In this document: piece after piece, positions 13,706-53,369 of the stretch
Position numbering within the stretch: the first letter of the stretch is position 1
Layout of the letters: each line of letters opens with the position of its first letter
The notes under the pieces: model-generated
The model's input: the letters and a program-made list of their open reading frames with translations, nothing else
Told to the model about the DNA's origin: nothing
Database searches by the model: none
DNA from: Acidovorax benzenivorans
GTDB taxonomy: Bacteria > Pseudomonadota > Gammaproteobacteria > Burkholderiales > Burkholderiaceae_C
Reading direction: 5' to 3'
DNA: 64,000 nucleotides
NCBI RefSeq assembly: GCF_028680575.1
Contig: NZ_JAPCKI010000001.1
Span: forward strand, 248,001 to 312,000
Program-made: the position numbers and the translations under genes

Positions 13706-13744
13706 GAAATGCGTCTCGCGAAAGGGAAAAAGGAATGGGAAGAA

Positions 13745-14041: not shown

Positions 14042-14090
14042 GGGTCGGATCACTCAAGAGAAAGGGAGTGGGCGGCAATGGCCTAGCGGT

Positions 14091-14633
14091 TCACGCCGGT
14101 GGTGCCAGCCGCATCAACCAGCCATGCCCCTCGTCCCAATCGCCCAGGCCCGACTCGGCATTGATGTGGCCGCGCTCGCCGTAGTCGACAAAACGCGCAC
14201 CCCAGGCCTGCGCCAGACCTTCGGCGCGCTCCAGGCTGCAATACGGATCGTTGCGGCTGCCCACCAGCACGGCAGGGAACGGCAGCAGCTGGCGCGCAAT
14301 GGGTGCCCAGCCGTGGATCTGCGCGGCCAGGTCGGGGCGCTCCACATCGCCCGGCGCTACCAGCAGCGCCCCCACCACGCGGTGCGCGTTGGCCGAGTGC
14401 GCGGCCCACCAGGCGGTGAGGACACAGCCCAGGCTGTGGGCCACCAGCACCACGGGGCCGTCGGCATCGACCACGGTTTCCTCCAGCCGCGCGGACCAGT
14501 CGCCGCGCAGCGGGCGCATCCAGTCGTGCTGCTCCACGCGGTGGTAGCCGTGGCGGGCCTCCCACAGGCTTTGCCAGTGGCCGGGGCCGGAGTTCTGCCA
14601 GCCGGGTAGCAGCAGGGTGTTGGAAGCATTCAT
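14091..14633 (-). CDS. RBBP9/YdeN-family alpha/beta hydrolase
   Basis: Serine-hydrolase-like protein of 180 residues. LLLPGWQNSGPGHWQSLWE opens the domain with the RBBP9/YdeN pattern; VLVAHSLGC is the nucleophile elbow (G-x-S-x-G variant HSLG); GSRNDPYCSLERAE carries the likely acid; a late RGHINAESG carries the catalytic His. Start at ATG 14633. It lies in the mnmG-parB block between parA and the cupin gene, and its start is flanked by a repeat-family-A copy. Substrate unknown. Confidence 0.8.
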   Translation of the reverse strand: MNASNTLLLPGWQNSGPGHWQSLWEARHGYHRVEQHDWMRPLRGDWSARLEETVVDADGPVVLVAHSLGCVLTAWWAAHSANAHRVVGALLVAPGDVERPDLAAQIHGWAPIARQLLPFPAVLVGSRNDPYCSLERAEGLAQAWGARFVDYGERGHINAESGLGDWDEGHGWLMRLAPPA

Positions 14634-14634
14634 C

Positions 14635-14692
14635 ACTATCAATTTAATAGCTATCAGCGCTTATATATCAAGCGCCAGGGGTCATTTTGGCC
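14635..14692. repeat. Dispersed repeat family A, copy 2 (encodes the ParA C terminus)
   Basis: Copy with TAATAGCTATCAGCGCTT, an AT-rich spacer, AAGCGCCAGGGGTCATTTTGG. It separates the hydrolase gene from parA. Read on the minus strand it encodes the last residues of ParA, including KMTPGA and the stop codon, so the repeat has been taken into the coding sequence. Confidence 0.75.
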
Positions 14693-15480
14693 ATGGAAGA
14701 TGCTGCCGCAGGCATGGTTTGCACGCGCTCGACCATCTCCTGCGCAAACTCCACAAACGCCTGGCTGCCCTTGGCGGCCGGGTCGAACACCACACCGGGC
14801 AACCCGTAGCTGGGCGCCTCGGCCAAGCGCACGTTGCGCGGGATCACGCTGTTGAACACCTTGTCGCCGAAGTGGCCCTTGAGCTGGTCGCTCACCTGCT
14901 GCTGCAGGGTGATGCGCGGGTCGAACATCACACGCAGCAGACCGATGATCTGCAGGTCGGTATTGAGGTTGGCATGCACCTGCTTGATGGTGTTGACCAA
15001 GTCGGTCAGGCCTTCGAGCGCGAAGTATTCGCACTGCATGGGAACGATCACCCCGTGCGCGCTGCACAGGCCGTTGAGCGTGAGCATGGACAGCGACGGC
15101 GGGCAGTCGATGAGCACGAAGTCGTAGTCGCCATCGGCCTCGGCCAGCGCGGCCTTCAGGCGCTTTTCGCGGTGCTCCAGCGCCACCAGCTCCACCTCGG
15201 CGCCCGCCAGTTCGCGGTTGGCGCCCAACACCCAGTAGCCACACTTTTCAGACAACACGGCAGCCTCTTTGACCGAGGCGGACTCGAGCAGCACGTCGTA
15301 CACCGTGAGGTCGAGGCTGCGCTTGTCCACACCCGAGCCCATGGTGGCATTGCCCTGCGGGTCCAGGTCCACCATCAGCACGCGCTGACCGATCTTGGCC
15401 AGCCCGGCGGCGAGGTTGACGGTGGTGGTGGTCTTGCCAACGCCACCCTTCTGGTTGGCAACGCAAAAGATCTTGGCCAT
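14668..15480 (-). CDS. parA: Chromosome partitioning ATPase ParA
   Basis: ParA/Soj-type ATPase of 270 residues. The N terminus CVANQKGGVGKTTTTVNLA holds the deviant Walker A (K-G-G-x-G-K-T). DLDPQGNATMGSG and VLIDCPPSLSMLTLNGL are the other conserved nucleotide-binding motifs. Together with ParB and parS it moves duplicated origins apart. The last residues (KMTPGA) and stop come from a copy of the family A repeat, outside the conserved domain. Order here is mnmG-rsmG-lysE-parA-hydrolase-cupin-parB, all minus strand. Confidence 0.96.
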   Translation of the reverse strand: MAKIFCVANQKGGVGKTTTTVNLAAGLAKIGQRVLMVDLDPQGNATMGSGVDKRSLDLTVYDVLLESASVKEAAVLSEKCGYWVLGANRELAGAEVELVALEHREKRLKAALAEADGDYDFVLIDCPPSLSMLTLNGLCSAHGVIVPMQCEYFALEGLTDLVNTIKQVHANLNTDLQIIGLLRVMFDPRITLQQQVSDQLKGHFGDKVFNSVIPRNVRLAEAPSYGLPGVVFDPAAKGSQAFVEFAQEMVERVQTMPAAASSMAKMTPGA

Positions 15481-15504
15481 GTGGGTGCTGCAGTTCGTGT
15501 AGTT

Positions 15505-16119
15505 TTATTTAGAGATGGCGAGCTTGATGCCAAAGCCGATCAGGAAGACGCCTGCGGTCTTTTCCAGCACGCGGCCGATGCGCGGGTTGGCGCGCATGCG
15601 CTCGGCCAGGTGGTGCGTGAGCAGCACGGCGGTCAGGCCATAGAGAAACGTCAATGCCGCCACGGTGGCCGCCATCACACCAAAGGTCAACAGGCCCTGG
15701 TGGCGCGCAGGATCGACAAACAGCGGAAAGAACGCCATGTAGAACACGATGGCCTTGGGGTTGAGCAAGGTGATGAGCCCCGCCTGCTTGAAGTAGTGGC
15801 GCGGCTGGATGTTGAGGATGGGTTGTGCCCCTGGCTTGGCAGTGAGCATCTTGAAGCCCAGCCACGCCAGGTAGGCCGCGCCCAGCCACTGCACCGCATG
15901 GAAGGCCGTGGGGTAGGTAGCCAGCAACGCCGCCACACCGGCCACTGCTGCCCACATCAACACCTGGTCACCCGCAATCACGCCCATGGTGGCCGCCATG
16001 CCGCCGCGAATGCCGCCCTTGCTGGTGGATGTGATGAGTGCCAGATTGCCGGGGCCTGGAATGAGCAGGAACAACACGATGGCGGCAACAAAGGCGCCGT
16101 AGTCTGCGATGCCGAACAT
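15505..16119 (-). CDS. LysE-family translocator
   Basis: Inner-membrane protein of 204 residues with about six hydrophobic segments. The start FLLIPGPGNLALITSTSKGG is the LysE/RhtB-family signature (P-G-P near the end of the first helix). Such proteins export amino acids or related small molecules. Start at ATG 16119 (MFGIADYG). It separates rsmG from parA in the segregation block, 24 bp before parA. Substrate unknown. Confidence 0.88.
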   Translation of the reverse strand: MFGIADYGAFVAAIVLFLLIPGPGNLALITSTSKGGIRGGMAATMGVIAGDQVLMWAAVAGVAALLATYPTAFHAVQWLGAAYLAWLGFKMLTAKPGAQPILNIQPRHYFKQAGLITLLNPKAIVFYMAFFPLFVDPARHQGLLTFGVMAATVAALTFLYGLTAVLLTHHLAERMRANPRIGRVLEKTAGVFLIGFGIKLAISK

Positions 16120-16227
16120 GAACTCTCCCGGTGTGCTGGATGGGTGCAATGAGGGACGCACCCGAAGTGAGGAGCCGAGTTTACGCGAGCCCCCCGCCCC
16201 GCCCGCTGAAAAGTCGGTGCCCAGGGG

Positions 16228-16905
16228 TCAGGCGGGCTTCATCCAAATGATGCAGCGCTCGGCGTCGAGGCTGGGCACGGCAAGCTGTTCCACGTGAAAC
16301 ACCGAGACATCGGCAGGCAAGGCCGCGATTTCTTCCTCGGGGTGTTTGCCCTTCATCGCCAACCAGACCCCGTGCGGGACCACCAGCGCAGCGCGCGACC
16401 AGGTCACAAAGTCTGGCAGCGAGGCAAACGCACGGCAGCTGATGATGTCGAACGGGGTAGCCAACGTCTCGACCCGCGCATGCACGCCATGCAGGTTGCG
16501 CAGCTTCAGCGCCACCGCCGCCTGCTGGATGAAGGCCGCCTTCTTGCCCACCGTATCCACACAGCTCACATCCACCTCCGGGCAGCAGATGGCGAACACC
16601 ACGCCGGGCAAGCCGCCGCCCGATCCGACATCGAGCAGCTTCACCGCTGCCACTCCACGCTCCTGCAGCAAGCCCGCCACGTGCCGACGCAGCGGCGCCA
16701 CGGCGGCCAGACTGTCCAGCAAGTGGTGCGACATCATCTCCTGCGGGTCGCGCACGGCGGTCAGGTTGTAGACCTTGTTCCACTTTTGCAGCAGCGCCAG
16801 AAAGTCCATCAATTGGGTGATCTGTGCGTCGCTCAAGCCCAAGGCCAGGGCGTCCGCACCAGCCTGCAGCTGTTGGCGCAAGGTATCGTTGTTCACTGCC
16901 GCCAT
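16228..16905 (-). CDS. rsmG: 16S rRNA (guanine527-N7)-methyltransferase RsmG (GidB)
   Basis: Methyltransferase of 225 residues that methylates N7 of G527 in 16S rRNA (E. coli numbering) using S-adenosylmethionine. VKLLDVGSGGGLPGVVFAI (about residues 77-95) is the SAM-binding motif; the N-terminal KVYNLTAVRDP is family-typical. Start at ATG 16905, whose A is the last base of the mnmG stop (TGATG overlap), implying translational coupling. A parS site lies inside the gene near its 3' end and is translated as FHVEQ. Confidence 0.95.
   Translation of the reverse strand: MAAVNNDTLRQQLQAGADALALGLSDAQITQLMDFLALLQKWNKVYNLTAVRDPQEMMSHHLLDSLAAVAPLRRHVAGLLQERGVAAVKLLDVGSGGGLPGVVFAICCPEVDVSCVDTVGKKAAFIQQAAVALKLRNLHGVHARVETLATPFDIISCRAFASLPDFVTWSRAALVVPHGVWLAMKGKHPEEEIAALPADVSVFHVEQLAVPSLDAERCIIWMKPA
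16286..16301. other. parS: parS site 1 (inside rsmG)
   Basis: TGTTCCACGTGAAACA, one mismatch from a perfect palindrome and from the consensus parS. It lies inside rsmG and is the site nearest parB. Confidence 0.9.
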
Positions 16906-18902
16906 CACGCTGCCACTTCGCCTTCTGCCTTGGCAGGCAAAACCGGTGCCACGGCAAACTCCCTGAACCCACCCTTTTTCAAATGCACCATCAGCAGCGA
17001 GATCGATGCGGGTGTGATGCCCGTGATGCGCGAGGCATGGCCCAGAGTTTCGGGCCGGTGGCGGCTGAGCACCTGGCGTGCCTCGATGCTCAAGGCCGTG
17101 ACCTGCATGTAGTCCAGGTCGGGTGGCAAGCGCAGTTTTTCAAAATGTGCGGCGCGTTCCACCTCGTCCTTCTGACGGTCGATGTAGCCCGAATACTTGG
17201 CCGCAATCTCCACCTGCTCCACCACAGGCTCGCTCAAGGGCCCCAGCGTTTCACGTGAAACATCATTGGACGCGTATTTACCGTCATCCATGGACATCAG
17301 GTTGGCGTAGCTCACATCCGGGCGGCGCAGCAACTCGAACAGGTTGTATTCGTGCTCGATGCTCTTGCCCAACACCCGCTCGGACTCCGCCGCAGGCAGG
17401 CTGCGCGGATTCACCCAGGTAGCTTTCAGGCGTTCTGTTTCACGTGAAACCGCATCGCGTTTGCGGCTGAAGGCGTCCCAGCGCGCATCGTCCACCAACC
17501 CCATGCGGCGCCCTGCTTCGGTCAGGCGCATGTCGGCATTGTCCTCGCGCAGCTGCAGGCGGAACTCCGCCCGGCTGGTGAACATGCGGTAGGGCTCGGT
17601 CACGCCCTTGGTGATCAGGTCGTCCACCAGCACGCCCAGGTAGGCCTCGTCGCGGCCCGGCAGCCACGCGGCTTCGCCACGGCATTGCAGCGCAGCGTTG
17701 ATACCCGCGAACAGGCCCTGGGCCGCTGCCTCTTCATAGCCCGTGGTTCCGTTGATCTGCCCAGCAAAGAACAGGCCCTGGATCTGCCGCGTCTCAAAGC
17801 TGCTCTTGAGCGAGCGGGGGTCAAAGTAGTCGTATTCAATGGCGTAGCCGGGGCGCAGGATGTGCGCGTTCTCCAGCCCAGGCATGCTGCGCACCAGGTC
17901 GTACTGGATGTCGAACGGCAGGCTGGTGCTGATGCCATTGGGGTAGAACTCGTGCGTGGTCAGCCCTTCGGGTTCCAGAAAGATCTGGTGGCTGTCCTTG
18001 TCCGCAAAGCGGTTGATCTTGTCTTCCACACTCGGGCAGTAGCGCGGCCCCACGCCTTCGATCTTGCCGGTGAACATGGGGCTGCGGTCAAATCCGCTGC
18101 GGATGATCTCGTGCGTGCGCTCGTTGGTGTGGGTGATCCAGCAGGGCATTTGTTTCGGGTGCATGGCCGCCCCTCCGTACGCATGCGCCATGAAGCTGAA
18201 CACCGGCACCGTGCCCTCGTTCACACCACCGGGCATGCCGTCGCCGGGCTGCTCGGTGCACTTGGAGAAGTCGATACTCCGCCCGTCCAGCCGGGGTGGC
18301 GTGCCGGTTTTCAGGCGTCCCTGGGGCAGCTTCAGCTCCTTCAGGCGCGCCGATAACGACACGGCGGGCGGGTCCCCTGCCCGGCCTGCGGCGTAGTTGT
18401 TCAGCCCCACATGGATCTTGCCATCCAGGAAGGTCCCGGCCGTCAGCACCACCGTACGGCTGCGAAAGCGGATGCCAACCTGCGTGACGGCGCCCACCAC
18501 ACGGTCCCCCTCCACCATCAGGTCGTCCACCGCCTGCTGGAACAGCCACAGGTTGGGCTGGTTCTCCAGCATGCGGCGGATGGCGGCCTTGTACAAAATG
18601 CGGTCGGCCTGCGCCCGCGTAGCGCGCACCGCAGGGCCTTTGGAGCTGTTGAGAATGCGGAACTGGATACCGCCCTCGTCCGTGGCCAGCGCCATGGCAC
18701 CACCCAGTGCATCCACCTCTTTCACCAGGTGGCCCTTGCCAATGCCGCCGATGCTGGGGTTGCAGCTCATCTGCCCCAGCGTCTCGATGTTGTGGGTCAG
18801 CAGCAGCGTTTTGCTGCCCATGCGCGCAGCGGCCAGCGCGGCCTCGGTGCCTGCATGGCCACCGCCGACAACGATCACATCAAATTCCTGGGGGTACAAC
18901 AT
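16905..18902 (-). CDS. mnmG: tRNA uridine-5-carboxymethylaminomethyl modification enzyme MnmG (GidA)
   Basis: FAD-dependent tRNA-modifying enzyme of 665 residues. With MnmE it forms the 5-carboxymethylaminomethyl group on the wobble uridine of several tRNAs. [20 protein letters not shown] at the N terminus is the FAD dinucleotide-binding motif, and [18 protein letters not shown] follows; later segments ([35 protein letters not shown]) are strongly family-typical. Start at ATG 18902; a longer frame reaches 19199 but is not conserved-looking. Two parS sites lie inside the gene, each translated as VSRET. Stop overlaps the rsmG start (TGATG). Confidence 0.97.
17247..17262. other. parS: parS site 2 (inside mnmG)
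   Basis: CGTTTCACGTGAAACA; core GTTTCACGTGAAAC is a perfect 14-bp palindrome. Read as VSRET in MnmG. Confidence 0.9.
17436..17451. other. parS: parS site 3 (inside mnmG)
   Basis: TGTTTCACGTGAAACC; core GTTTCACGTGAAAC is a perfect palindrome. Read as VSRET in MnmG, 189 bp from parS site 2. Confidence 0.9.
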
Positions 18903-19116
18903 GGGGTGCTCCGGGGCCGCGCGGGCCCGACATTCAAAACCGTCCGCCACCCTGCGATGGCCAGAGGATGGCCAGCCGCACGGGAGCGGGCTGCACCACC
19001 ACCGGTCAAGCGAAGTGGCAGGGGTGCAAGGGAAAACCCACGATTTTCCCACCTTTGCATGCTTTTTGTGCAAAGCCCTGCCCGCAGCGCAACCGCCTCC
19101 TCCCTGCCCCGGCATC

Positions 19117-19132
19117 TGTTCCACGTGAAACA
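19117..19132. other. parS: parS site 4 (upstream of mnmG)
   Basis: TGTTCCACGTGAAACA, identical to site 1, in the intergenic region between mnmG and the FMN reductase gene. Confidence 0.9.
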
Positions 19133-19198
19133 AACACCCGCCAATGCACAAGGAGGCGGCGGCAGCTTGCAGTATTCCTGCCCCGGCTTTGTGCTTCA

Positions 19199-19801
19199 AT
19201 GGCCCGCATGACCCAACTCCTCATCTTTGCGGGCAGCACCCGCCAGCAGTCCTTCAACCGCAAACTGGCCCACGCCACCGCCGCCATCGCGCGCGACGCG
19301 GGCGCACAGGTCACGCTGCTGGAGCTGTCCGACTTCAACATCCCGCTGTACAACGCCGACCTCGAAGCCCAGGGCACACCGGCCGACGTGATCCGGCTCA
19401 AGGAGGTACTGTGGCAGCACCCGGCCTGGATCATCTGCTCGCCCGAGTACAACGGCAGCTACACCGCCCTGCTCAAGAACACCATCGACTGGGCCTCCAG
19501 CCCCGTCAAGGGCAACCCCGACTGGCAGGACGGTGGCAAGAGCTTTCGCGGCAAGGTCGTGGGCATGCTGAGTGCCTCGCCCGGCGCCCTGGGCGGCCTG
19601 CGCTCGCAAAGCCACCTGGCCCCCCTGCTCATCAACGCCGAATGCTGGCTGGCACCCAAGGCGTTTGCGCTGGGCTCGGCCGGCAGCGCGTTTGACGACA
19701 ACGGCGCCCTCCTCCAGCAAACCCACAGCGACCGCGTGCGCGCCGTGGTGGACCAGGTGCTATGGGCGGCCAGCCGCCTGCAGCCCGCTGCCGGTCAATA
19801 A
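19199..19801 (+). CDS. NADPH-dependent FMN reductase family protein
   Basis: Flavodoxin-like protein of 200 residues. [18 protein letters not shown] (G-S-x-R) is the FMN phosphate-binding loop and [18 protein letters not shown] is the second FMN-contact region, as in NADPH-dependent FMN reductases and quinone reductases. Starts at 19199 or 19208 (both ATG). It is divergent from mnmG, with parS site 4 between them. The next gene, a Cys-cluster protein, begins 16 bp later and is probably in the same transcript. Confidence 0.87.
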
Positions 19802-42971: not shown

Positions 42972-44831
42972 ATGAAAAAATTACTTTGCATCGCGGCTCT
43001 TCTGATTTCTTCTGCCGTTTTCGCGAGCAATCCAGTCAATGAAAGCCCCGTTTCAAGCATCATCTTGATGCCATGGGACATTTCAAACAACAACAATCTT
43101 CCCAAAGAATTGAAACAGAAGGGATTCAATCACATCACCTTCTATCTCAACTGGAATGAAATAGAAAGAGAAAAATCTCAATACGACTTTTCGCATTACC
43201 ACAAATATCTGGACAACATTGTCAACAGTGGCATGTCACTCATTCTCGTGCTAGATATGGGTGGCCGTCCATATATCAACGAAAGTGGAAAGGTGGTGAA
43301 AGATGAATACACCATGCCCACATGGATTTACGCGAAGTATCAAGACTATTTGATGAAGAACTTCTCGGAAAATCATCAAAAACAAGCCGATTTTTCAGAT
43401 GGCCCCGTCAGAAAACACTCTACAGAATTCATTGCAAACACGGTTTCTCATTTCTCCAAACGATACCAAGGAAAAATATTGGGTTTTGCCATCGGCCTTC
43501 AGGAGGAGCACGAAATCAAGTATGGACAGACAGGCTATCAATGGCGTGACTATAACGACAGAACGCAACTTGACTTCAAGCAGAAGTATGGAGAAAAACA
43601 ACCCATCATTAATTACAACAACGAAATAAAAAATGGCCTAGCCAATGCAGAACCTCTTCTGTATGCCCACAAAGAATACAGAGAAAATCGTCTCAAGGAT
43701 GCCACATGCGCCTACGCCGAGGCCATCCGAGACCAAGGTGCCTTGGCCATGGGTTATTTTGCAGAAACATTCACGTCACATGATGGCATTTACGCGACGG
43801 GGGTTGTAGAGAAACTGGCCCCCTGCATCGACATCGCCGTCATTGACTACAATTTTTACGATGGCTACCAGCTTGTCCCAGATTCCAGCGTATTGCCGAC
43901 GCTGGCAAACTACATGGGCTCTCTGGGCTACAAAAAAGTTCTGGTGGGTGCCTATGCCGAGCAGTGGGAGAGAAAAAACAAGACCCTTGATCTGGTTCCT
44001 GTGATCAACCAGACAATCAGTGAATCACTCCTTCAGAACAATGTCATTGGTTTCGAGATTGGTGGACTCCAGCAACAGCAAGCTGCAAAAAATGAGTCCG
44101 CAGCGATTGACATGAAAAATCTGGCTGCCATTTTCTCCAAGGCTTCACACCAAAAACAGCCTGAAAAAGAAAAGAAATTCAGGATTGGTATCCTGGGTTC
44201 TGCAACAAACTTCTACGTCTGGCATGGCGAACGGAGCGGTGGAAGAAATATCCATCGCGATGCACTTTTTGAATCCTTCAAACTATTGAACAGCCAACCC
44301 GATATGGATGTTCAACTGATCGGGGAAATAAACCTGCTTCAGGACGACCCCCTCATCAATGGTTTTGATGCAATACTAGTCCCGCATCAGGTTGCACTAC
44401 CAGTCAGCATCAAATCAAAACTCACCAACTACTGGAAAAATGGAGGGGCACTCATCCAGGACATGCGGCTGGGAGAGTTTGATGAAAACGGAAAACCCAC
44501 GTTCGACTGGATGCACGAAGTATTTGGTATCGAAAAAATCAACTGGAAAAAACGAGGTGGCATCTTCATGATGGGCGATGATATCTATCGCCTCAAGCCA
44601 TCGCGCCGCTTCTATACCGGTTATGCCTCCATCACCCCCCGCGCTGGCTATCAACTGCTGGCCACAGACATCATGCAACGCGACAGCGGAATCATGGTGC
44701 GGGGAGAACGGACACTGGCCTTCGGTTTGATGCCACAGCTTGTCGAGGACCATACGCAAGGGGCCTGGAGAAAACTTTTCGTCCAAGAAATCAGGAACGT
44801 TGCGCAAAAAAACAAACGCCTGTCCAAGTGA
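42972..44831 (+). CDS. Secreted glycoside-hydrolase-like protein (GH42-like), low GC, probably acquired
   Basis: Exported protein of 619 residues with signal peptide KKLLCIAALLISSAVFAS. Residues 35-385 look like a TIM-barrel glycosidase of clan GH-A (FYLNWNEIEREKSQYDFSHY, GFAIGLQEEHEIKYG as possible acid/base region, VLVGAYAEQWER as possible nucleophile region). Residues 400-530 resemble the trimerisation domain of GH42 beta-galactosidases. The gene is visibly AT-richer than all neighbours, in line with recent transfer. The exact family and the catalytic pair are uncertain. No neighbouring sugar genes. Confidence 0.6.
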   Translation: MKKLLCIAALLISSAVFASNPVNESPVSSIILMPWDISNNNNLPKELKQKGFNHITFYLNWNEIEREKSQYDFSHYHKYLDNIVNSGMSLILVLDMGGRPYINESGKVVKDEYTMPTWIYAKYQDYLMKNFSENHQKQADFSDGPVRKHSTEFIANTVSHFSKRYQGKILGFAIGLQEEHEIKYGQTGYQWRDYNDRTQLDFKQKYGEKQPIINYNNEIKNGLANAEPLLYAHKEYRENRLKDATCAYAEAIRDQGALAMGYFAETFTSHDGIYATGVVEKLAPCIDIAVIDYNFYDGYQLVPDSSVLPTLANYMGSLGYKKVLVGAYAEQWERKNKTLDLVPVINQTISESLLQNNVIGFEIGGLQQQQAAKNESAAIDMKNLAAIFSKASHQKQPEKEKKFRIGILGSATNFYVWHGERSGGRNIHRDALFESFKLLNSQPDMDVQLIGEINLLQDDPLINGFDAILVPHQVALPVSIKSKLTNYWKNGGALIQDMRLGEFDENGKPTFDWMHEVFGIEKINWKKRGGIFMMGDDIYRLKPSRRFYTGYASITPRAGYQLLATDIMQRDSGIMVRGERTLAFGLMPQLVEDHTQGAWRKLFVQEIRNVAQKNKRLSK

Positions 44832-44931: not shown

Positions 44932-45996
44932 TCAAAACGGCGCCGCCCCCGGATCCGTGTCCACCGGGGCCTCCTGGGGCCCGGTCACCACACCACCGCC
45001 AGCTGATTTGCGTGCAGGTGCCGTGGGCGCCGAAATCCGTGGCGTGGCGGTGGTCGGGACTGAGGCGGAAGCCGCAACAGCTACAGCCTGCGCCGCACCC
45101 GCCACCCCATTCTCGGTCTCCCCCCCCAGCGCATCGATCAGGTCCGGAATCAGCTTGACCAGCTCGCCCGTGGCAATCGCCACGTCGGTGTCAAAGCCGC
45201 CGTCATCTGCCTTGGTGCCTTCAAACACCGTGTCCAGGAACGACACTTTCTTGATCTGCAGGCCTTCGGTGAGCATGAAGCTCACGCGGTCGTCCCAGGT
45301 GAGGGCAAGTTTGGTCGGCAGCTTGCCAGCGTCGATGTGGGCCTGCACCTCCTCGATGTCGAGTGGGTGGCGGGCGTAGCGCACCACGGCTTTTTCCTCG
45401 TTGGCACTTTTCAGTTCGCACTCGCGGTCCACCGTGAAGCCCACGGGTGGCTCCTGCTCCTTGAGCCAGTGGGCCATGGCAGCCTGTGGGCTGGTCTGGG
45501 TGTCGAGCAGCGACACCGACAGGCCGGGCAGCGATTCGACCAATAAGGTCACCACTTCATCGGCACGGCCCTGGCTACCGGTGTCCAGCACCAGCAAGCG
45601 CGAGGCCGTGTCGATCCAGATCCACATCGACCCCTGCTTGGTGAAGGCCATGGGCAGCAGGTCCAGCTTGGCCTCGTCTTTCAGCTCCTTGCTTTCCTTC
45701 TTGCCGGGCTTGCGGCCGGTTTCCTTTTCGATGCGCTCGGCCTTTTCCTTGACCTTGCGCGCCAGCACGCTGCCGGGCAGCACCTTGGTCTCGACCATGA
45801 AGCGCAGGATCCACTGCCCGCCCACAGACTCGACCAGGGGGCCGTGCAGTTCGCCCCGGGGGGGCACCCAGCCCAGTGACTTCTCCTGCGTGGCACCACA
45901 TTCCTGAAACGGGGCCTTGGCCAGGACCTCTTCCACTTGCGTCAACTCGACCTGCCATTGCGGGGCAATGCGGTACACGATCATGTTCTTGAACAC
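44932..45996 (-). CDS. rdgC: Recombination-associated protein RdgC
   Basis: Ring-shaped DNA-binding protein of 354 residues that can block RecA. GTG 45996 (VFKNMIVYR) matches the family start, in which FKN-x-x-VYR opens the protein; ATG 45984 would cut into it. Internal landmarks: GWVPPRGE, LLPMAFTKQGSMWIWID, KLALTWDDRVSFML. It carries a C-terminal Ala/Pro-rich tail of about 60 residues beyond the usual length. Convergent with the glycosidase-like gene. Confidence 0.93.
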   Translation of the reverse strand: MFKNMIVYRIAPQWQVELTQVEEVLAKAPFQECGATQEKSLGWVPPRGELHGPLVESVGGQWILRFMVETKVLPGSVLARKVKEKAERIEKETGRKPGKKESKELKDEAKLDLLPMAFTKQGSMWIWIDTASRLLVLDTGSQGRADEVVTLLVESLPGLSVSLLDTQTSPQAAMAHWLKEQEPPVGFTVDRECELKSANEEKAVVRYARHPLDIEEVQAHIDAGKLPTKLALTWDDRVSFMLTEGLQIKKVSFLDTVFEGTKADDGGFDTDVAIATGELVKLIPDLIDALGGETENGVAGAAQAVAVAASASVPTTATPRISAPTAPARKSAGGGVVTGPQEAPVDTDPGAAPF

Positions 45997-46329
45997 GGAA
46001 AACCTTTGGTTGGGGTCGCTGCGAACAACGACACGGACACGGAACCCGCCATTGTCGGCGGTCGCCACCCAGGCACTGGGCCGCTGGGGAACACACCGCC
46101 CCTGGGTAACTTCGAACGCTACGCAATCAATAGCAAACAAAGCATATGACACAAGCGCATCGTCTGCTATTTGCTCAAAAACTGCCTTGTGCTGCTTTGC
46201 AAGCGTTCGCCACAACTTTACACAGCCTCACCCAACACGCACGGTGGCGACACGTAGGCGGCAGACACTGAACTCCAATCGCTGAAACGGTCGTTGCAGC
46301 GAGCTCACCACCGTGAAAGGACTCTCACC
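45997..46329. other. Divergent promoter region between rdgC and the Spy-like gene
   Basis: No gene. It includes a diverged copy of repeat family A near 46118-46174. No recognisable operator or terminator was found. Confidence 0.35.
46118..46174. repeat. Possible repeat family A copy (decayed)
   Basis: CAATCAATAGC, a middle segment with ACAAGCGC, and TGCTATTTGC, similar in order to family A but decayed. Assignment tentative. Confidence 0.4.
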
Positions 46330-46902
46330 ATGGCATCCCGCTTCTCCCACCACATCTCTCACCGTATTGCCGCCACCGCCCTGCTCGCTGCCATGGCACT
46401 GCCCGTGCTGGCCCAGCAGCCCCCTGCCACCCCACCGGCATCGCCCGCAGCCTCAGCCAAGGCCGCCGAGGGCCGCCATGAACGCCACCATGGCGACATG
46501 GCACAGCGCCACGCCAAGCGGCTGACAGACCTCAAGACCCAGCTCAAGCTGACCCCCGCCCAGGAACAGGCCTGGACCACCTTCACCACCGCTATGCAAC
46601 CCGGCGAACGCCCCGCCCGCCTGGACCACCAGGACATGGACAAGCTGACCACCCCCGAACGCATCGACCGCATGCGGGCCATGCGCTCCCAGCACGCGGC
46701 CGAAGCCGACCGCCGTGGCGAAGCCACCAAGGCCTTCTATGCCGCGTTGACGCCCGAGCAGCAAAAAACCTTTGACGCCCAGGCCCACCGGGGTCACCCC
46801 ATGGGTGGCATGCGGGGAGGCGAAGGCCGCCACGGGCACGGAGACCACCACGGCGGCATGCGCGGGGGCGAAGGCCGCCCGGCCCCCGCTCCGGCCAAGT
46901 AA
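46330..46902 (+). CDS. Spy/CpxP-like periplasmic protein
   Basis: Exported protein of 190 residues with a signal peptide ending PVLAQQ. The mature helical part has AKRLTDLKTQLKLTPAQEQA and FYAALTPEQQKTFD; both L-T-P-x-Q segments are the LTxxQ motifs of the Spy/CpxP family. Its C terminus is a His/Gly/Arg-rich repeat, GMRGGEGR twice, perhaps metal binding. Start ATG 46330. Followed 44 bp later by a strong terminator. Confidence 0.82.
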   Translation: MASRFSHHISHRIAATALLAAMALPVLAQQPPATPPASPAASAKAAEGRHERHHGDMAQRHAKRLTDLKTQLKLTPAQEQAWTTFTTAMQPGERPARLDHQDMDKLTTPERIDRMRAMRSQHAAEADRRGEATKAFYAALTPEQQKTFDAQAHRGHPMGGMRGGEGRHGHGDHHGGMRGGEGRPAPAPAK

Positions 46903-46979: not shown

Positions 46980-47031
46980 GTTGTGGTGGCCAGCCCGATA
47001 CGGTGCTCGGGACAGCTCCACCCACCACGAT

Positions 47032-47254
47032 TGTGGATAACCCTGGGCACAGTTCCGGCACAACCAGGCAGTTATCCACAAAAAAAACCGCTGCCCAAAA
47101 GTTGTTGTCGGCGAGCCCCGCACTTTGTGCAAGCCGCCCCACATACTTTGCAGCGATGCAAGTGCGCGCCAGCATTGAAGAAAAAGCGCTTGTCCACACA
47201 AACAGGCTTGCTCTACTACTACTGCTATTTATATATAAAGCTATTAAAGAATAA
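47032..47254 (+). other. Origin-like module 1 (DnaA boxes, DnaA-trio-like, AT-rich)
   Basis: Boxes at 47032-47040 (minus), 47072-47080 and 47190-47198; spacer 47199-47212; CTACTACTACT at 47213-47223; AT-rich tract of about 29 bases at 47226-47254. Confidence 0.75.
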
Positions 47255-47290
47255 ACAGAACCCTAACTCCGGGATCCTGATCACTCCCCT

Positions 47291-47305
47291 GTGACGTCAC
47301 GTGAC
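47291..47305. other. Overlapping palindromes in the origin-like region
   Basis: GTGACGTCAC (47291-47300) and GTCACGTGAC (47296-47305) are two perfect 10-bp palindromes sharing five bases, 37 bp after the AT-rich tract of module 1. Possible protein-binding site. Confidence 0.6.
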
Positions 47306-47578
47306 ATGCCGTTTGGCCGGTGGGGAGACCTTGCCAGCAAGAACATCACCACCAGAAGATGGTGGCAACAGCATGGCCCGCCCCGCCGACAGCCCAGGCC
47401 ATCTCGGGCATCCACAGGAAGTCGTTATCGGACGAAACGGCTCCCATACCTGGCGAGGGGGATGTGTTGCCCCAAGGCAGCCCAGCGCAGCTTCAACCAT
47501 CGTCTGGGCAGGCTGAGACCATGCCGCCAATGCCCCAGAGCCATTGCGGTACAGAAGGCGGTGCGCCACAAAACGCTC

Positions 47579-47640
47579 AAATTACTATCAATTTGAGAGC
47601 AAATAAAGCACGTGATACAGGCGCTACCCGCCGTTTTGAT
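47579..47640. repeat. Dispersed repeat family A copy inside the origin-like region
   Basis: AAATTACTATCAATTTGAGAGC, then AAAGCACGTGATACAGGCGC and a GATAAAAATT end, a diverged copy. It lies between the two origin-like modules. Confidence 0.5.
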
Positions 47641-47705
47641 AAAAATTTACAGCACGCTCGCACCCGGTGCGTAAAACTGGGGATAGTTTTGGCACAACCG
47701 GGGGC

Positions 47706-47890
47706 TTATCCACAGATAAGTGCGATGCGCTGCTTTTGTCCCCGCCCGAGCGACAACGGGAGCAGGGCTTGGTGCACAGGGTTGGCGGCAGGCTAAGTGC
47801 GCGCCAATGCAGACAAAAACGCAGTTGTCCACAAGCCAGGCCGCCCTCTACTACTACGACTATATATTTATAAAAGAAATAAGAAGAAGA
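47706..47890 (+). other. Origin-like module 2 (DnaA boxes, DnaA-trio-like, AT-rich)
   Basis: Boxes TTATCCACA (47706-47714) and TTGTCCACA (47825-47833); spacer 47834-47847; CTACTACTAC at 47848-47857; AT-rich tract of about 30 bases at 47861-47890. The stretch AGTGCGCGCCA before the second box is shared with module 1. Confidence 0.75.
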
Positions 47891-48030
47891 CAGAGAACAA
47901 CTGGGGAGGGACCACCGGCCGAGGCTGATGGGCGCAACGGGTGCGCCAGACGTACCCGTCCTATCGTCCGAATCGTCCGCAATGGTCCAAATGGACTGAA
48001 GGGCCTGAAAAGGCTGTGAAGGACCGCAGA

Positions 48031-48094: not shown

Positions 48095-51000
48095 TTATCC
48101 CTGCGAGGTGCGCAGGAAGCTGTCCAGAACGTCCACCGATAGCGCCTTACTGAACAGGTAGCCCTGGTAGAGCTGGCAACCCGCGCGGGCCAGCAGCGCG
48201 CATTGCTCGGGGGTTTCTACGCCTTCTGCGATCACTTCCAGCCCCAGGCTGCGTGACAGCCCGATGATGGTGTCCACAATGGCGGCGTCGTTGGGGTCGG
48301 TCAGCAGGTCGTGCACAAAGCTCTGGTCGATCTTGAGTTGATCGAGTGGCATGCGCTTGAGGTAGCTCAGGCTGGAGTAACCCGTGCCAAAGTCGTCCAG
48401 CGAGAAGCCCACGCCGTACGACCGCAGCGCGGTCATGGTGGCGATGGTGGTCTCCATGTCTTCCACCAGCAGGCTTTCGGTCAGCTCCAGCTTGAGCTGG
48501 GCCGATGGCGCGCCGGTGATGGCGAGCACACGCGCCACATCGTCCACAAAACTGGCATGGCGGAACTGGCGCGAGCTTACGTTGACGGCCATGGTCAGGT
48601 GCGACAGTGCGGGGTCGTTCTGCCAACTGGCCAGCAGCTTGCAGGCGGTGTGCAATACCCAGCGGCCCAGGGGCAGGATGAGGCCGGTCTCTTCGGCCAG
48701 CGGGATGAACTGGGCGGGCGGCACCATGCCGCGCTGCGGGTGGGCCCAGCGCACGAGTGCCTCCACCCCCACGCAGCGGCCTGACTGGTGGATCTGCGGC
48801 TGAAAGTGCAGCAGGAACTCCTCTTGCACCAGGGCCGAGCGCAGGTCGGTCTCCAGCCCTGCGCGTGCCGTGACCACGGCCTGCATGTCGGGGTCAAAAA
48901 AGCGCAGCGTGTTGCGCCCGGCCGTTTTGGCCTGGTACATGGCCAGGTCGGCCTGCTTGAGCAGCTCTCCCACTGTGGTCTGCTCCCCCGTGAAGGGGGC
49001 AATACCAATGCTGGGCGTGCTGCGGTACTGGTAGCCCTGTAGCGCATAGGGCACGGCCAGCATGGCCAGGATCTTTTCGCCCACCCCCCGCGCGTGCAGG
49101 GCCAGTTCGTGGGGTTTGGGGCTCAGCTCTTCCAGCATCACCACAAATTCGTCGCCGCCCAGTCGGGCCACGGTGTCCACGCTGCGCACACAGGTGTTCA
49201 GGCGCTGTGCCACCTGTTGCAGCAGCAGGTCACCCTGGTCGTGGCCCAGGGTGTCGTTCAGGGTCTTGAAGTTGTCCAGGTCGATGAACAGGAGCGCTCC
49301 GCCTTGATGGCGCCGTTGTGCCGCAGCCAGTGCCTGGTGCATGCGGTCCATGAGCAGCATGCGGTTGGGCAGGCCGGTGAGCGCGTCGTAAAACGCCAGG
49401 CGCTGGATCTCGCGCTCGTTGGCCTTGCGCTGGCGGATGTCGGTGTTGATGGCCAGGATGGACTGCGGCTGGCCGCCGTCGCCACGCACCAGCGTCCAGC
49501 GGCCTTCCACCTCGATGGTGCTGCCGTCGCGGTGGCGCTGCACGATCTCGCCGGTCCATTCGCCCTGCTCCAGCACTGCCTGCATGGCGTGCCGGAAATG
49601 GGTGGGGTCTTCGTAGAGCAGCGTTTCGATGGACTGGCCCAGTGCCTGCAGTTGAGACCAGCCGTACAGGCGCTCGGCGCTCTGGTTCCAGAAGATGATG
49701 CGGTGCTCCAGGTCACGCACCAGGATGGCGTCCTGCGCCTTGTCCAGCAGCGAGGCCTGGTGGCGGATTCGGGTGTCGGCCAGCTGGCGTTCGATTTCGG
49801 ACGAGGCGCGCGCGGCAAAAATCTGCAGCGTGGAGGTGATGAAATCCGTGTCGGCAATCGCCTGGCGGAACAGCACAAACACAATGCCCACCACCTCGCC
49901 ATCGGCATTGCACAGCTGCTGGCCCACGTAAGCCTGGGCGCCCAACTGGCGCAGCACAGGTGCTTCGGGGTAGAGCTGCTGCACCTTGTCGATCACCACA
50001 TGGGTGCGTTGCGACATCAGCAACAGGCTGGGCGTGCCCGCCAGGCTGTATTCGTCGTTGGGCAGCATCTGGCCGTCGAGCACGGCGGCCAGCGTGACCA
50101 CCCGGGGTGGCTCCTGGTCCTGCGACTGCGGTAGCAGTTGCACCAAGCAGCCTCCCTGGGCATCCAGCGCATCGGTCATGTTGCGCACCAGCTGCACAAA
50201 GAACTCGGTGCCCGTACTGGCCGATACGGCCGCCGCCACCTTGAGTACCGAGGCCTGCAGCCGCTGCTGCGCCTTATGTGCGCGCAGGCTGGTGATGCCG
50301 ATGGCCAGGTCGTTAGACAGTTCTTGCAGCAGTGCCGCTTCTTCCGGGCTGATCTGCAGCACGTCGGGCGCATACAGGTACAACAGGCCAAAGCTGCGGT
50401 CCTGGGTGTGGTCGCGCGCATGTTCTCGCAACGGCAGGCAGATCACGCCGTGAAAGCCATGATCCAGCATGCGCTCGGTCCAGTCGGCAAAGTCGCCTTC
50501 GGTGCGGATGTCTTGCACGATCACTGGCTGGCCGGTCCGCACCGCTATGCCCGCGGGCCCCCGGCCGTAGGGGTCGTCGGCCGACCAGCTCAGGTCCAGG
50601 TTTTCCAGGTAGTTTTTGTTGTAGCCCGCATGGGCCACGGGCCGGATGGACTTGCGCTCATCGTCCAGCGCAAGCCCCACCCAGCCCATGCGATAGCCGC
50701 CAATGTCCACCGCAATCTGGCAGATGGCCTGCAGCAGCGCGGTTTCAGACGTGGCGCGCACCAGGGTTTCGTTGCACGCGCTCAGCAGGCGCTGGGCACG
50801 GCCCATGCGCGCCAGCTCGCGCTCGGTGCGCAGCCGCTCGGTAACGTCGGTGGCCAGCACCTGGCGGGCTGGTTGCCCGTTGAAGCTGATGCTACCCGCC
50901 GTGATTTCCACGTCCATGAAGGTGCCGTCCTTCTTCACATGGCGGCTGATGACCGGCTTGTTGCGCTGGCTCATGGGGATGGCGTCGATGGACGCACGGA

Positions 51001-51520
51001 TGGCATCCCGCCGCTGGGCCGGCCACAGGTCGGTCATCTTCATGGTCAGCAGCTCGGCCTCGGTGTAGCCGTAGTGGGTTTCCATCGACCGGTTTACAGC
51101 CACCAGGCGCTGGGTCTCCTTGTCGTACACCCACATGGGGTGCGGGTGCTCGTCAAACAGCATGCGGTATTGCTGCTCTGACGCATGCAGTTGCCCGGCC
51201 ACATGCCGCAACTGCACCATGGCGCCCAGCGACTCGGTCAGGATCTCCAGGTGCGCCACATCACGGCGCGAAAACGCATTGACCTTGTCAGACGTGACCT
51301 TGAGCGACCCCACGATGGCATCGCCACTGCGCAGCGGCACGGCCATCACTGACCGCACGCCGTGGCGGTGGGGCATGGAGGCCATGTCCCAGCCCTCGGC
51401 CTCGGTGTCGTTACACACCACGGTCTGGCCTCTGCTGAGGGCAGGCCACAACAGGCTCTCGTCCACCGCCAGCAGGTTGCCCACGGGCCGCACATGGTCA
51501 CCGGCCGAGGCCTGCGCCAC
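48095..51520 (-). CDS. GGDEF/EAL cyclic-di-GMP enzyme, C-terminal part of a frameshifted gene
   Basis: Open frame of 1141 residues. It begins inside a GAF domain, then PAS (about 118-235), two further GAF regions (about 250-575), PAS (about 585-705), GGDEF (about 715-880; RLGGDEFVVML intact) and EAL (about 890-1135; EALVRW and DDFGTGYSSL intact). It can probably make and degrade cyclic di-GMP. The first residues follow in sense from the gene at 51346-52992 if one G is added to the G6 tract at 51530-51535, so both parts were one protein of about 1632 residues. A GTG at 51520 could start a shortened product. Confidence 0.88.
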   Translation of the reverse strand: MAQASAGDHVRPVGNLLAVDESLLWPALSRGQTVVCNDTEAEGWDMASMPHRHGVRSVMAVPLRSGDAIVGSLKVTSDKVNAFSRRDVAHLEILTESLGAMVQLRHVAGQLHASEQQYRMLFDEHPHPMWVYDKETQRLVAVNRSMETHYGYTEAELLTMKMTDLWPAQRRDAIRASIDAIPMSQRNKPVISRHVKKDGTFMDVEITAGSISFNGQPARQVLATDVTERLRTERELARMGRAQRLLSACNETLVRATSETALLQAICQIAVDIGGYRMGWVGLALDDERKSIRPVAHAGYNKNYLENLDLSWSADDPYGRGPAGIAVRTGQPVIVQDIRTEGDFADWTERMLDHGFHGVICLPLREHARDHTQDRSFGLLYLYAPDVLQISPEEAALLQELSNDLAIGITSLRAHKAQQRLQASVLKVAAAVSASTGTEFFVQLVRNMTDALDAQGGCLVQLLPQSQDQEPPRVVTLAAVLDGQMLPNDEYSLAGTPSLLLMSQRTHVVIDKVQQLYPEAPVLRQLGAQAYVGQQLCNADGEVVGIVFVLFRQAIADTDFITSTLQIFAARASSEIERQLADTRIRHQASLLDKAQDAILVRDLEHRIIFWNQSAERLYGWSQLQALGQSIETLLYEDPTHFRHAMQAVLEQGEWTGEIVQRHRDGSTIEVEGRWTLVRGDGGQPQSILAINTDIRQRKANEREIQRLAFYDALTGLPNRMLLMDRMHQALAAAQRRHQGGALLFIDLDNFKTLNDTLGHDQGDLLLQQVAQRLNTCVRSVDTVARLGGDEFVVMLEELSPKPHELALHARGVGEKILAMLAVPYALQGYQYRSTPSIGIAPFTGEQTTVGELLKQADLAMYQAKTAGRNTLRFFDPDMQAVVTARAGLETDLRSALVQEEFLLHFQPQIHQSGRCVGVEALVRWAHPQRGMVPPAQFIPLAEETGLILPLGRWVLHTACKLLASWQNDPALSHLTMAVNVSSRQFRHASFVDDVARVLAITGAPSAQLKLELTESLLVEDMETTIATMTALRSYGVGFSLDDFGTGYSSLSYLKRMPLDQLKIDQSFVHDLLTDPNDAAIVDTIIGLSRSLGLEVIAEGVETPEQCALLARAGCQLYQGYLFSKALSVDVLDSFLRTSQG

Positions 51521-52992
51521 CAGCTGGGACCCCCCTGCAACAGCTCCACCATGGCACCACGCGCTGCTGTCTGGCGCAACACGGTGTCAGCCACCAGTTG
51601 CAGCACCTCGGGCAGCGGCATATCCAGTGACGAGATGCGCTGCTGCACCTGCAACAGTTCGGCATGGTTTTGTGCGTCGCGCTGGGCGTCCAGGTCGGCC
51701 AGCTTCTGGGCGCTGATGTCGGTCATGCCGCCCACCATGCGCACCGCCTTGCCCTGCAGGTCGCGGATCAGAAAGCCCCGGTCCAGCACCCAGGCGTAGC
51801 TGCCATCCCGCCGGCGAAACCGGTATTCGTCCGACCAGTGGTTGGCCGTGCCATCGATGGCGGCATGGATGCCCTGGAGCACCGCGTCGCTGTCATCGGG
51901 GTGCAGCCGCAAGGTCCACGATGTGCTGTCGGACGGCAGCTGGTCCAGGGGCTCGCCAAACAGAGTTTGCATGCCCTCGTTCCACCACATGGCATCGGTG
52001 TGCAGGTTCCAGTCCCACACGGCATCGGCCGTGGCGCGCGATACCAAGTGAAAGCGCTCTTCGCTTTCGCGGCGGGCCTGCTGGGCCTGGTGCTGGGCGG
52101 AGATGTCCTGAAACGCGCCCTGCACCTGCACGATGCAGCCCTCACCATCACGCACCGCCTGGCCCGTGGTGCGCACCCAGAAATGTTGTGAACCCGGCGT
52201 GACGAGTTCGGCCTCCAGGTCAAACGGCGTGCCGTGGCGGATACAGTTTTCAAACGCCGTCTGCATCGCCTGCCGGTGAGGTGGCAGGTACAGCCCCAGG
52301 ATCTGCTCCACCGAACCCATGCGCCCCGTGATGCCAAAGGCAACGGCGATCTCCTGCGACCAGTTCAGCTGCAGGCTGGGCAGTTCCACGATCCATCCAC
52401 CGATGCGGGCCACCTGCCCGGCTACGCGCAGGGTTTCGCTCTGGACCACCAGCTCGGCATGCATCTGGTCGCGCTGCTGCACCAGGTCGGCCAGCACCTG
52501 CTTTTGGCGGCGCAACTCCAGTTGCACCATGGCCTGTTCGGCCAGAATGCGCAGACCCTCCAACTGCTCGGCCTTGATGTGCCGGGGGATGGAGTCCAGC
52601 ACCGCCAGAGTGCCTAGTGCCAGCCCTTCGGGCGTGACCAGCGGCACGCAGGCGTAAAACCGCACATGCGGATACTGGGTGACCAGCGGGTTGTGGGCAA
52701 AAACGGGGTGCTCACGCGTGTCGTTGATCACCAGGGGCTCGCGGCTGCCGCTGAGCGCATGCGCGCAGAACGCGATCGCGCGTTCGGTTTCCTTGAACGG
52801 CACACCCACTGCGGCCTTGAACCACTGCCGGTCGCTGTCCACGAAGTTGACCACCGCCATCGGGCACTGGCATACACGTGCTGCCAGCGTGGCCAGTTGG
52901 TCAAAGCTGTCTTCTGCTGGAGTGTCGAGGATCGCGTAAGACTGCAGTGCCTGGAGCCGTGCGGCTTCTGCGGTGGCTTGCGCTGGCGGCAT
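51346..52992 (-). CDS. GAF/PAS sensor part of the frameshifted GGDEF/EAL gene
   Basis: N-terminal 548 residues. Residues 15-160 are a GAF domain (ILDTPAEDSFDQLATLAARV), then a coiled coil (EQLEGLRILAEQAMVQLELR), PAS (about 205-310) and PAS (about 335-450), then the opening of a second GAF. The in-frame coding ends meaningfully at about 51535; after the G6 tract the residues (WWRRPRPVTMCG onward) are out of frame and Trp/Arg/Pro-rich. Start ATG 52992 (MPPAQATAE). Adding one G joins it to the frame that continues to 48095. Confidence 0.8.
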   Translation of the reverse strand: MPPAQATAEAARLQALQSYAILDTPAEDSFDQLATLAARVCQCPMAVVNFVDSDRQWFKAAVGVPFKETERAIAFCAHALSGSREPLVINDTREHPVFAHNPLVTQYPHVRFYACVPLVTPEGLALGTLAVLDSIPRHIKAEQLEGLRILAEQAMVQLELRRQKQVLADLVQQRDQMHAELVVQSETLRVAGQVARIGGWIVELPSLQLNWSQEIAVAFGITGRMGSVEQILGLYLPPHRQAMQTAFENCIRHGTPFDLEAELVTPGSQHFWVRTTGQAVRDGEGCIVQVQGAFQDISAQHQAQQARRESEERFHLVSRATADAVWDWNLHTDAMWWNEGMQTLFGEPLDQLPSDSTSWTLRLHPDDSDAVLQGIHAAIDGTANHWSDEYRFRRRDGSYAWVLDRGFLIRDLQGKAVRMVGGMTDISAQKLADLDAQRDAQNHAELLQVQQRISSLDMPLPEVLQLVADTVLRQTAARGAMVELLQGGPSWWRRPRPVTMCGPWATCWRWTRACCGLPSAEARPWCVTTPRPRAGTWPPCPTATACGQ

Positions 52993-53369
52993 GGTCAGTC
53001 CACCGTGGCGCCGCTGCATGCGCACCCACCCAGCCTGGTCAGTGTGACCAGTCCATCAGCAGCGGGGCGGTGAGGCAATGTTGGCAAGGCAATCGGGTAG
53101 TAGGTGGGTGCGCGCAATGCTGCCGCACCGCGCGCATGAGTCCTTGGCACAGCCAGTGTGGCAAAGAACGTCAATGCTACACCGCACAGCCCTCGCTTGC
53201 GATGCGCGCCCATGGGGGTTTTCCCAAAAGACACGGTGTTCTGATCTGGGGCAGTCACCCACGCAACCTTCGCGCAGCACGAGGCTTGCTAACGTGGCCC
53301 CATGCAGATTCAGAACTCGCACACTTGGGGGCTACATGCCCCTCAGGGCTGATCGCTTCGCGGCGCCCG
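52993..53369. other. Intergenic region between the large GGDEF/EAL gene and aroG
   Basis: 377 bp without a convincing gene. It contains a small dyad, GGTCA-GTG-TGACC (53037-53049), near the large gene's start, and a hairpin GGGGC-tacat-GCCCC (53328-53342), downstream of aroG on the minus strand with no T run. No clear promoter recognised. Confidence 0.4.

Follow-up and report, generated by a model that had tools for sequence, protein, structure and literature searches.

A probable Acidovorax chromosome origin with two tandem DnaA-trio modules, located away from dnaA

The non-coding gap between two convergent genes of Acidovorax benzenivorans that we describe here is, judging from its sequence, quite likely the oriC of the Acidovorax chromosome, and it consists of two tandem, same-facing candidate unwinding modules, M1 and M2. 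Both modules are probably usable within the one oriC, M1 being the fuller of the two: M1, with three DnaA boxes including a box at -158 that its class usually keeps, is probably the main opening site, and M2, in whose class that box is mostly missing, probably serves the same origin as a second site that is weaker or an alternative. An initial annotation of this DNA had proposed an origin-like region with two cores and no dnaA gene nearby, and the proposal is supported by a switch in A/T composition at the modules in this genome, by a dnaA locus free of modules, and by conservation of the modules in the family and the genus, although GC-based measures do not favour this position. The window is the whole stretch of DNA analysed, 64,000 nucleotides in length.

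Independent gene calls (46330-46902 on the plus strand, 48095-51520 on the minus strand) give the non-coding space between the convergent genes as 1192 bp, in agreement with the initial annotation, and the elements that it listed within this space are all in place, namely three exact TTATCCACA boxes at 47032 (minus strand), 47072 and 47706 (both plus), two TTGTCCACA boxes at 47190 and 47825 (both plus), and exactly 14 bases between each TTGTCCACA and a CTACTACTAC block (47213-47222 and 47848-47857), with an AT-rich run coming next and the two cores lying 635 apart, start to start. The gap is made of two tandem same-facing copies of a single 242-bp unit, the limits of which were set from matches to a relative (G004), and these direct repeats are 71-74% alike in their aligned parts, i.e., 26-29% diverged. 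At 242 bp the module exceeds the one first described, because it takes in the conserved boxes at -118/-119 and the reversed -158 box of M1. The features of the gap and its surroundings are listed below.

44932..46215, minus strand: rdgC (Pfam PF04381, E 9e-108; NCBIfam RdgC)
46330..46902, plus strand: LTXXQ-motif gene, left flank (PF07813)
47032..47273, plus strand: M1, full unit (reversed box at -158, forward box at -118, core box, spacer, trios, AT-rich tail)
47032..47040, minus strand: M1 DnaA box at -158, TTATCCACA reversed (box search)
47072..47080, plus strand: M1 DnaA box at -118, TTATCCACA (box search)
47190..47198, plus strand: M1 core DnaA box, TTGTCCACA (box search)
47213..47222, plus strand: M1 DnaA-trio block, CTACTACTAC (trios read 3'-GAT-5' on the complementary strand; spacer of 14 nt from the core box)
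47214..47253, no strand: M1 candidate unwinding element (rank 1 in predicted instability among 40-bp stretches, 742-kb contig)
47665..47906, plus strand: M2, second unit (same orientation as M1; direct repeat)
47667..47675, minus strand: decayed counterpart of the -158 box in M2 (not a box even with 1 mismatch allowed)
47706..47714, plus strand: M2 DnaA box at -119, TTATCCACA (box search)
47825..47833, plus strand: M2 core DnaA box, TTGTCCACA (box search)
47848..47857, plus strand: M2 DnaA-trio block, CTACTACTAC (14 nt past the core box)
47849..47888, no strand: M2 candidate unwinding element (rank 2 in predicted instability among 40-bp stretches, 742-kb contig)
48095..51520, minus strand: PAS/GAF-GGDEF-EAL gene, right flank (domains; same neighbour in several genera, family F3)

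The motif TTRTCCACA occurs at six sites in the window against an expectation of 0.58, the sixth lying at 15323, beyond the gap, and the five boxes of the gap form the densest TTRTNCACA cluster of the 742-kb contig (5 in 0.8 kb, intergenic). The pattern TTGTCCACA-N10-18-CTACTACTA has two matches in the 5.49-Mb genome, both in the gap, and the reversed-pattern control has 0 matches across the same 5.49 Mb. A chance origin of the box cluster was considered and rejected, as 0 of 100 shuffles of the window reached six sites, the pattern is found twice in the genome, and the reversed control is empty. In terms of predicted duplex stability, calculated as nearest-neighbour energy over 40-bp stretches of the 742-kb contig, the trio stretches of M1 and M2 rank as the first and second weakest.

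Both modules have a DnaA box within 16 nt of three or more trios, which corresponds to the sequence description of a BUS as a DnaA box, a spacer of at most 16 nt and at least three trios of the 3'-GAT-5' type, given in PMC8287927. The order of box, spacer, trios and AT-rich DNA is shared with the BUS of the B. subtilis type, as are upstream boxes at helix-compatible distances, and what distinguishes Acidovorax is the presence of two complete copies per origin. In the published BUS search nearly every genome is brought down to a single candidate (PMC8287927), a design by which a paired arrangement would be hidden.

The layout of the boxes was compared across 153 modules from 107 loci, which were chosen by the box and trio pattern with an AT-rich tail and come in part from related, and thus not independent, genomes; the core box and the trios are present in all of them by construction, since the choice was pattern-based, which is not the case for the boxes at -118 and -158. 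A forward DnaA box is found between -123 and -114 of the core box in 146 of the 153 modules (77 at -119, 67 at -118), against 1 in a control window. A reversed box is found between -162 and -154 in 75/153 and about one helical turn closer, between -148 and -145, in 36/153, with 5 modules having both, and one or the other position is occupied in 106/153, against 3 and 1 in two control windows, while an extra forward box at -89 is seen in 15/153. There is also a motif at -31, which we take to be an IHF-like consensus, exact in 12 of the 153 modules and found at up to one mismatch in 42; it is absent from both modules of the window and present in some relatives, which is a point against the origin reading.

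Work on B. subtilis (PMC6669920) reports that activity was regained with a distal DnaA box set 132, 297 or 462 bp upstream, subject to helical phasing, and its authors propose a DNA loop by which DnaA is delivered to the trios. The boxes of our modules at -118/-119 and at -158 or -147, the latter two being about one turn apart, can be compared with those distal boxes, and because these fixed positions fit the B. subtilis loop scheme, we propose a load-loop-open scheme for each module. DnaA would occupy the upstream boxes (-158, -118) and the core box, and looping from the upstream boxes would, by analogy with B. subtilis, hand DnaA to the core box; DnaA would then extend over the 14-nt spacer onto the DnaA-trios and open the AT-rich tail of that module, and helicase loading would follow the opening.

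As had been pointed out in the initial annotation, the window is without dnaA, dnaN and rpmH. All three are on the same contig, where dnaA (348.2-349.5 kb) is about 53 kb from the modules (295.0-295.9 kb); dnaN and rpmH beside dnaA were named by reading and not by family search. Adjacency to dnaA and dnaN is common for an oriC, without being defining, and is not found for the modules here. The search that had been suggested for dnaA or a canonical origin elsewhere turned up the dnaA locus of this contig, which is without a module, and both the above pattern and the sequence profile R1 introduced below hit the genome only in the gap. Upstream of dnaA, the gap between rpmH and dnaA (L001:2410-2475) has one exact and one one-mismatch DnaA box, which perhaps serve in autoregulation. 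The distance of about 28 kb from parS also holds, there being four parS-like sites, each with one mismatch, at 16286-19132, and the genes parB, parA, rsmG and mnmG are found with these four sites in the region 12788-19199 of the window. The oriC of E. coli is likewise tens of kb from dnaA, is about 245 bp long, and has its unwinding element at one end and boxes in both orientations; it is like a single module in its distance from dnaA, its size and its layout, and unlike the pair in being a single unit.

A module and dnaA are on one contig in 43 of 62 genomes, with 37 of these having the two at 15-260 kb from each other (median 56). At one extreme is G002, alone among the near-complete Acidovorax genomes in having a single module, which lies about 1.13 Mb from dnaA (C2:1135.2 kb) and is still beside rdgC; at the other are five of the 62 genomes (G100, G203, G341, G119 and G414), in which the module is within about 0.15 kb of dnaA and the DNA past the trios enters the start of a gene read as dnaN. 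These five dnaA-adjacent modules, with their trio-side DNA entering the putative dnaN start, tie the module to the standard oriC position, and the comparison suggests that the module has moved away from that common position.

Strand composition was assessed by a two-sided model of base use at fourfold sites, with gene strand as covariate. For A/T in this genome (G000), the best break is at 295.3 kb of the contig, with a 2-unit interval of 292.3-297.3 kb, and the fit stands at 0.0 units for the modules, -25.8 for dnaA and -14.1 for the gid locus; in 200 gene resamplings the break fell within 10 kb of the modules 174 times and within 10 kb of dnaA 0 times. The genes in the roughly 54 kb between the modules and dnaA have an A/T skew nearer to that of the right arm than to that of the left, on both strands. 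Three further genomes were fitted over about 400 kb each: for G024 the best break is at 49.3 kb, which is the position of one of its modules (the middle one), with an interval of -27.7 to 62.3 kb and dnaA at -7.8; for G007 it is at 307.7 kb, beside the modules, with an interval of 207.7-321.7 kb that contains dnaA (modules -0.7, dnaA -1.9); and for G004 it is at -25 kb (modules -2.6, dnaA -4.4). The A/T fit thus puts the modules ahead of dnaA in all four genomes, clearly so in two (G000 and G024). The three modules of G024, at 40.1, 49.3 and 69.4 kb of its C1, are spread over 29 kb of one chromosome.

The G/C signal at fourfold sites is overdispersed, and its break is off the modules in all four genomes: the best positions are 365 kb in G000 (modules -3.1, dnaA -2.1), 4.8 kb in G004, near dnaA (modules -5.5, dnaA -2.7), 275.7 kb in G007 (modules -3.3, dnaA -2.0), and -57.7 kb in G024 (nearest module -2.4, dnaA -3.1), which makes dnaA the better fit by 1.0 unit in G000, 2.8 in G004 and 1.3 in G007, and the worse one by 0.8 in G024. 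The skew check that the initial annotation had called for therefore gives a divided answer, with the A/T switch falling at the modules and the raw cumulative GC skew of the contig reaching its minimum elsewhere, at 392.9 kb. Whole-codon usage breaks at the modules in G000 (dnaA -51) and at 9.8 kb in G024, 442 kb in G007 and -87 kb in G004, and is not counted towards the origin claim because gene expression perhaps confounds it; the polarity of KOPS/Chi-like motifs has no clear flip that would locate an origin.

These data bear on the alternative that the true origin is at dnaA-dnaN, the modules being relics or secondary DnaA-box sites. The exact and one-mismatch boxes in the gap between rpmH and dnaA speak for such a reading, as do the GC-skew fits, which favour dnaA by 1-3 units in three of the four genomes, but dnaA has no module nearby, the A/T fit in G000 excludes it by 25.8 units, the 54-kb interval resembles the right arm on both strands, and a relic would hardly be expected to give hits in 47 of 47 genomes of the genus (see below), so that we consider an origin at dnaA very improbable and retain the gap as the probable oriC.

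The extent to which the modules are conserved was followed with R1, a sequence-only profile built from 51 of 52 modules (a pattern match at L080 was omitted from the alignment as a likely chance match) and used at a cut-off of E<=1e-3; hits in the window genome and in several relatives are partly by construction, because their modules are in R1. M1 scores 91.7 bits, against a profile that includes its own sequence, and M2 scores 76.4 bits. R1 matches are found in 371 of 399 family genomes, of which 252 have one, 106 two, 12 three and a single genome four, with 28 having none, and the multi-hit counts are probably low, since strict filters lose weak matches. Among the 119 genomes that have multiple hits, both places are known for 39; the two hits face the same way in 37 of these, and across the 39 they are separated by 0.3-1.6 kb (20 genomes), 2.8-4.5 kb (13) or 9.1-10.6 kb (6). 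All 47 Acidovorax genomes (genus taken from record names) have R1 hits, exactly two in 44, with single hits in G002 (2 contigs, complete), G604 (1080 contigs) and G624 (72% complete, with the hit cut at a contig start). The strict pattern, for its part, finds two modules in 41 of 72 named stretches, most of which were cut to 8 kb.

In a sample at the level of the order, 27 of 200 genomes have R1 hits, 5 of the 27 being from the same family as Acidovorax. Close pairs or triplets outside the family are seen in G019, G463 and G582, which belong to one family, and in G561, which belongs to another; G525, G563 and G461 have two hits that are far apart or on different contigs, and a double hit is for that reason not always a paired origin. 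The three R1 hits of G463 (L318) coincide with three tandem box pairs, in each of which a reversed box is 158-159 bp ahead of the forward box.

With a 1-kb query from the window, 11 of the 12 relatives searched within the genus give two distinct aligned segments, each 205-248 bp long, and the twelfth (G002) gives one; 8 genomes of other families have no match. In G004, M2 is 90.9% identical and M1 is inside a longer match of 81.8% that includes the left flank, with no alignment over the 391 bp that separate the two modules; by sequence alignment, then, both modules are conserved and the intervening DNA is not. The neighbourhood is shared as well, with an rdgC relative (family F0) in 19 of 22 compared stretches, and with the LTXXQ gene, PagL, the PAS/GAF-GGDEF-EAL gene, DAHP synthase, a Gate-domain gene and DUF3297 as the other shared neighbours in these 22. 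Where the modules are more than 2.5 kb apart, the pair flanks an rdgC-LTXXQ(-PagL) block in 11 of 15 loci, with one module on the side of the Gate gene; L233, L236, L238 and L240 depart from this layout, and G023 and G139, each with three modules, place a single one on the side of the Gate gene and the remaining two in tandem on the other side.

Three observations concern the genes around the gap in their own right. The LTXXQ-motif gene at 46330..46902 is presumably Spy/CpxP-like. The PAS/GAF-GGDEF-EAL region at 48095-53025 is read as two overlapping frames (1141 and 559 aa; overlap 51346-51520), and in relatives the gene is one frame of 1047-1612 aa, the split in the window being a frameshift or an assembly error. 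Further to the left, the gene at 42972-44831 is in a stretch of 47-54% GC, compared with about 65% for most of the window, has weak glycosyl-hydrolase similarity, and has perhaps been acquired recently.

Two diverged copies in a single non-coding gap could also be produced by a mobile element, an integrated plasmid origin or a repeat family situated beside the real origin. This is scarcely credible, however, as there are only two hits genome-wide, the modules are conserved across genera together with their neighbours, no replication-initiator domain is found among the six annotated window proteins, and Rfam has nothing at gathering score between 44.5 and 50 kb of the window. The mobile-element and relic readings were accordingly rejected on the two genome hits, the 371/399 matches in the family, the 47/47 in the genus and the shared neighbours.

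The relationship between M1 and M2 was examined in 44 tandem pairs, which remain from 48 (41 two-hit stretches, the window and six tandem loci) after omission of 4 wider than 1.7 kb, and of which 27 come from one group; 12 of the 71 modules listed for the module tree dropped out, their box or trio falling outside the pattern used. For 76 of the 88 modules, the nearest match beyond the module's own group belongs to the same class (53/58 in Acidovorax and Paracidovorax, 23/30 in the others), a figure that becomes 78/88 once Acidovorax and Paracidovorax are merged. Identity between groups over the variable columns is 0.567 for M1-M1, 0.534 for M2-M2 and 0.498 for M1-M2, compared with 0.536 for M1 and M2 within one genome. 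On the strength of these class-wise matches and of the between-group against within-genome identities, M1 and M2 look like separate old lineages, that is, old paralogues kept in parallel, with a small margin for M2.

The two classes differ in the -158 box, which is kept by 38 of 52 M1-like modules and by 6 of 35 M2-like ones, so that its loss tends, in these sequences, to be a trait of the M2 class. This difference lends itself to another explanation, in which opening is confined to M1 and M2 would modulate initiation by binding or titrating DnaA, a role comparable to that of the half of a bipartite origin that does not unwind; for B. subtilis and H. pylori, each half is reported to be essential in vivo and only one to be required for in vitro unwinding (PMC6669920). 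Such a role for M2 is possible, if on the whole doubtful, for M2 keeps the features expected of an opening site, namely the 14-nt spacer (retained in 35/35 M2-like modules), the trios and the second weakest duplex of the contig, whereas boxes alone would suffice for pure titration. The likeness to the bipartite origins lies in the two DnaA-box clusters within one origin region, and the unlikeness in that there only one half is needed for in vitro unwinding (PMC6669920), whereas in Acidovorax trios and a predicted weak duplex are found in both halves and no dnaA gene is found between them. Instead of two clusters sharing one unwinding region, the sequence has a trio block and a predicted weak duplex for each cluster.

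Elsewhere in the genome, two further loci combine DnaA boxes with a motif that we again assume to be an IHF-like consensus. The first (L322; C14:68650-69020 of G000) consists of three tandem units with the IHF-like consensus, TTATCCACA 40 bp on and TTGTCCAGT 12 bp later; with one mismatch allowed, the unit is matched 1-4 times in 37 of 47 Acidovorax genomes, and in three complete genomes whose size is known the cluster is separated from the modules by 0.62-0.64 of the half-chromosome, appearing farther away, at about 0.9, in G617 and G619, for which sizes are rounded. From its sequence, L322 looks like a DnaA-regulating locus, presumably of the DARS/datA kind. The second (L323; C41:101999-102490) lies in a region with no called gene, where both of its TTATCCACA boxes have the IHF-like consensus about 40 bp further on.

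A Vibrio cholerae chromosome with two oriCs arose by chromosome fusion. It is recorded as a natural chromosome with two functional oriCs in the text on Ori-Finder 2022 (PMC10225481). The idea of more than one origin-like element per chromosome is common to the two ARS of Pseudomonas aeruginosa and to the putative double origins that Gao (2015) described for Ralstonia pickettii, Ochrobactrum, Dehalobacter and Acidaminococcus (PMC4403523). The four examples in the table of Gao (2015) each concern one strain, the elements being separated by 150-882 kb or situated next to a duplicated dnaA (PMC4403523), whereas the tandem pair of Acidovorax is conserved in the genus and its M1 and M2 classes recur across genera. 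For the related Burkholderia cenocepacia, the main origin has been described as uncertain in position because of dispersed elements (PMC4948915), and for the genome of Acidovorax citrulli an origin predicted by OriFinder has been reported (PMC6595937). In the open-licence PMC literature we found no description of a paired-module arrangement.

Taken more broadly, the data allow a tentative reading, which in our judgement falls not far short of even, in which many Comamonadaceae-type bacteria would naturally run their chromosome from two DnaA-dependent opening sites: these would be adjacent alternatives within one origin in Acidovorax and 3-10 kb apart in other genera, where initiation might take place at either of two physically separate, old, co-maintained and mostly same-facing cores arranged about rdgC and the genes next to it. 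The general assumption for a bacterial chromosome is a single origin with a single opening site. With a genus that has two complete predicted unwinding modules, and relatives that have one to four, the existence of multiple DnaA-dependent opening sites per chromosome becomes testable, and the question arises of what a second opening site buys a natural chromosome. The modules also make up a comparative series, from a module beside dnaA, through one away from dnaA and two that are adjacent, to two that are about 4 or 9 kb apart, which is useful for studying the movement and duplication of origins.
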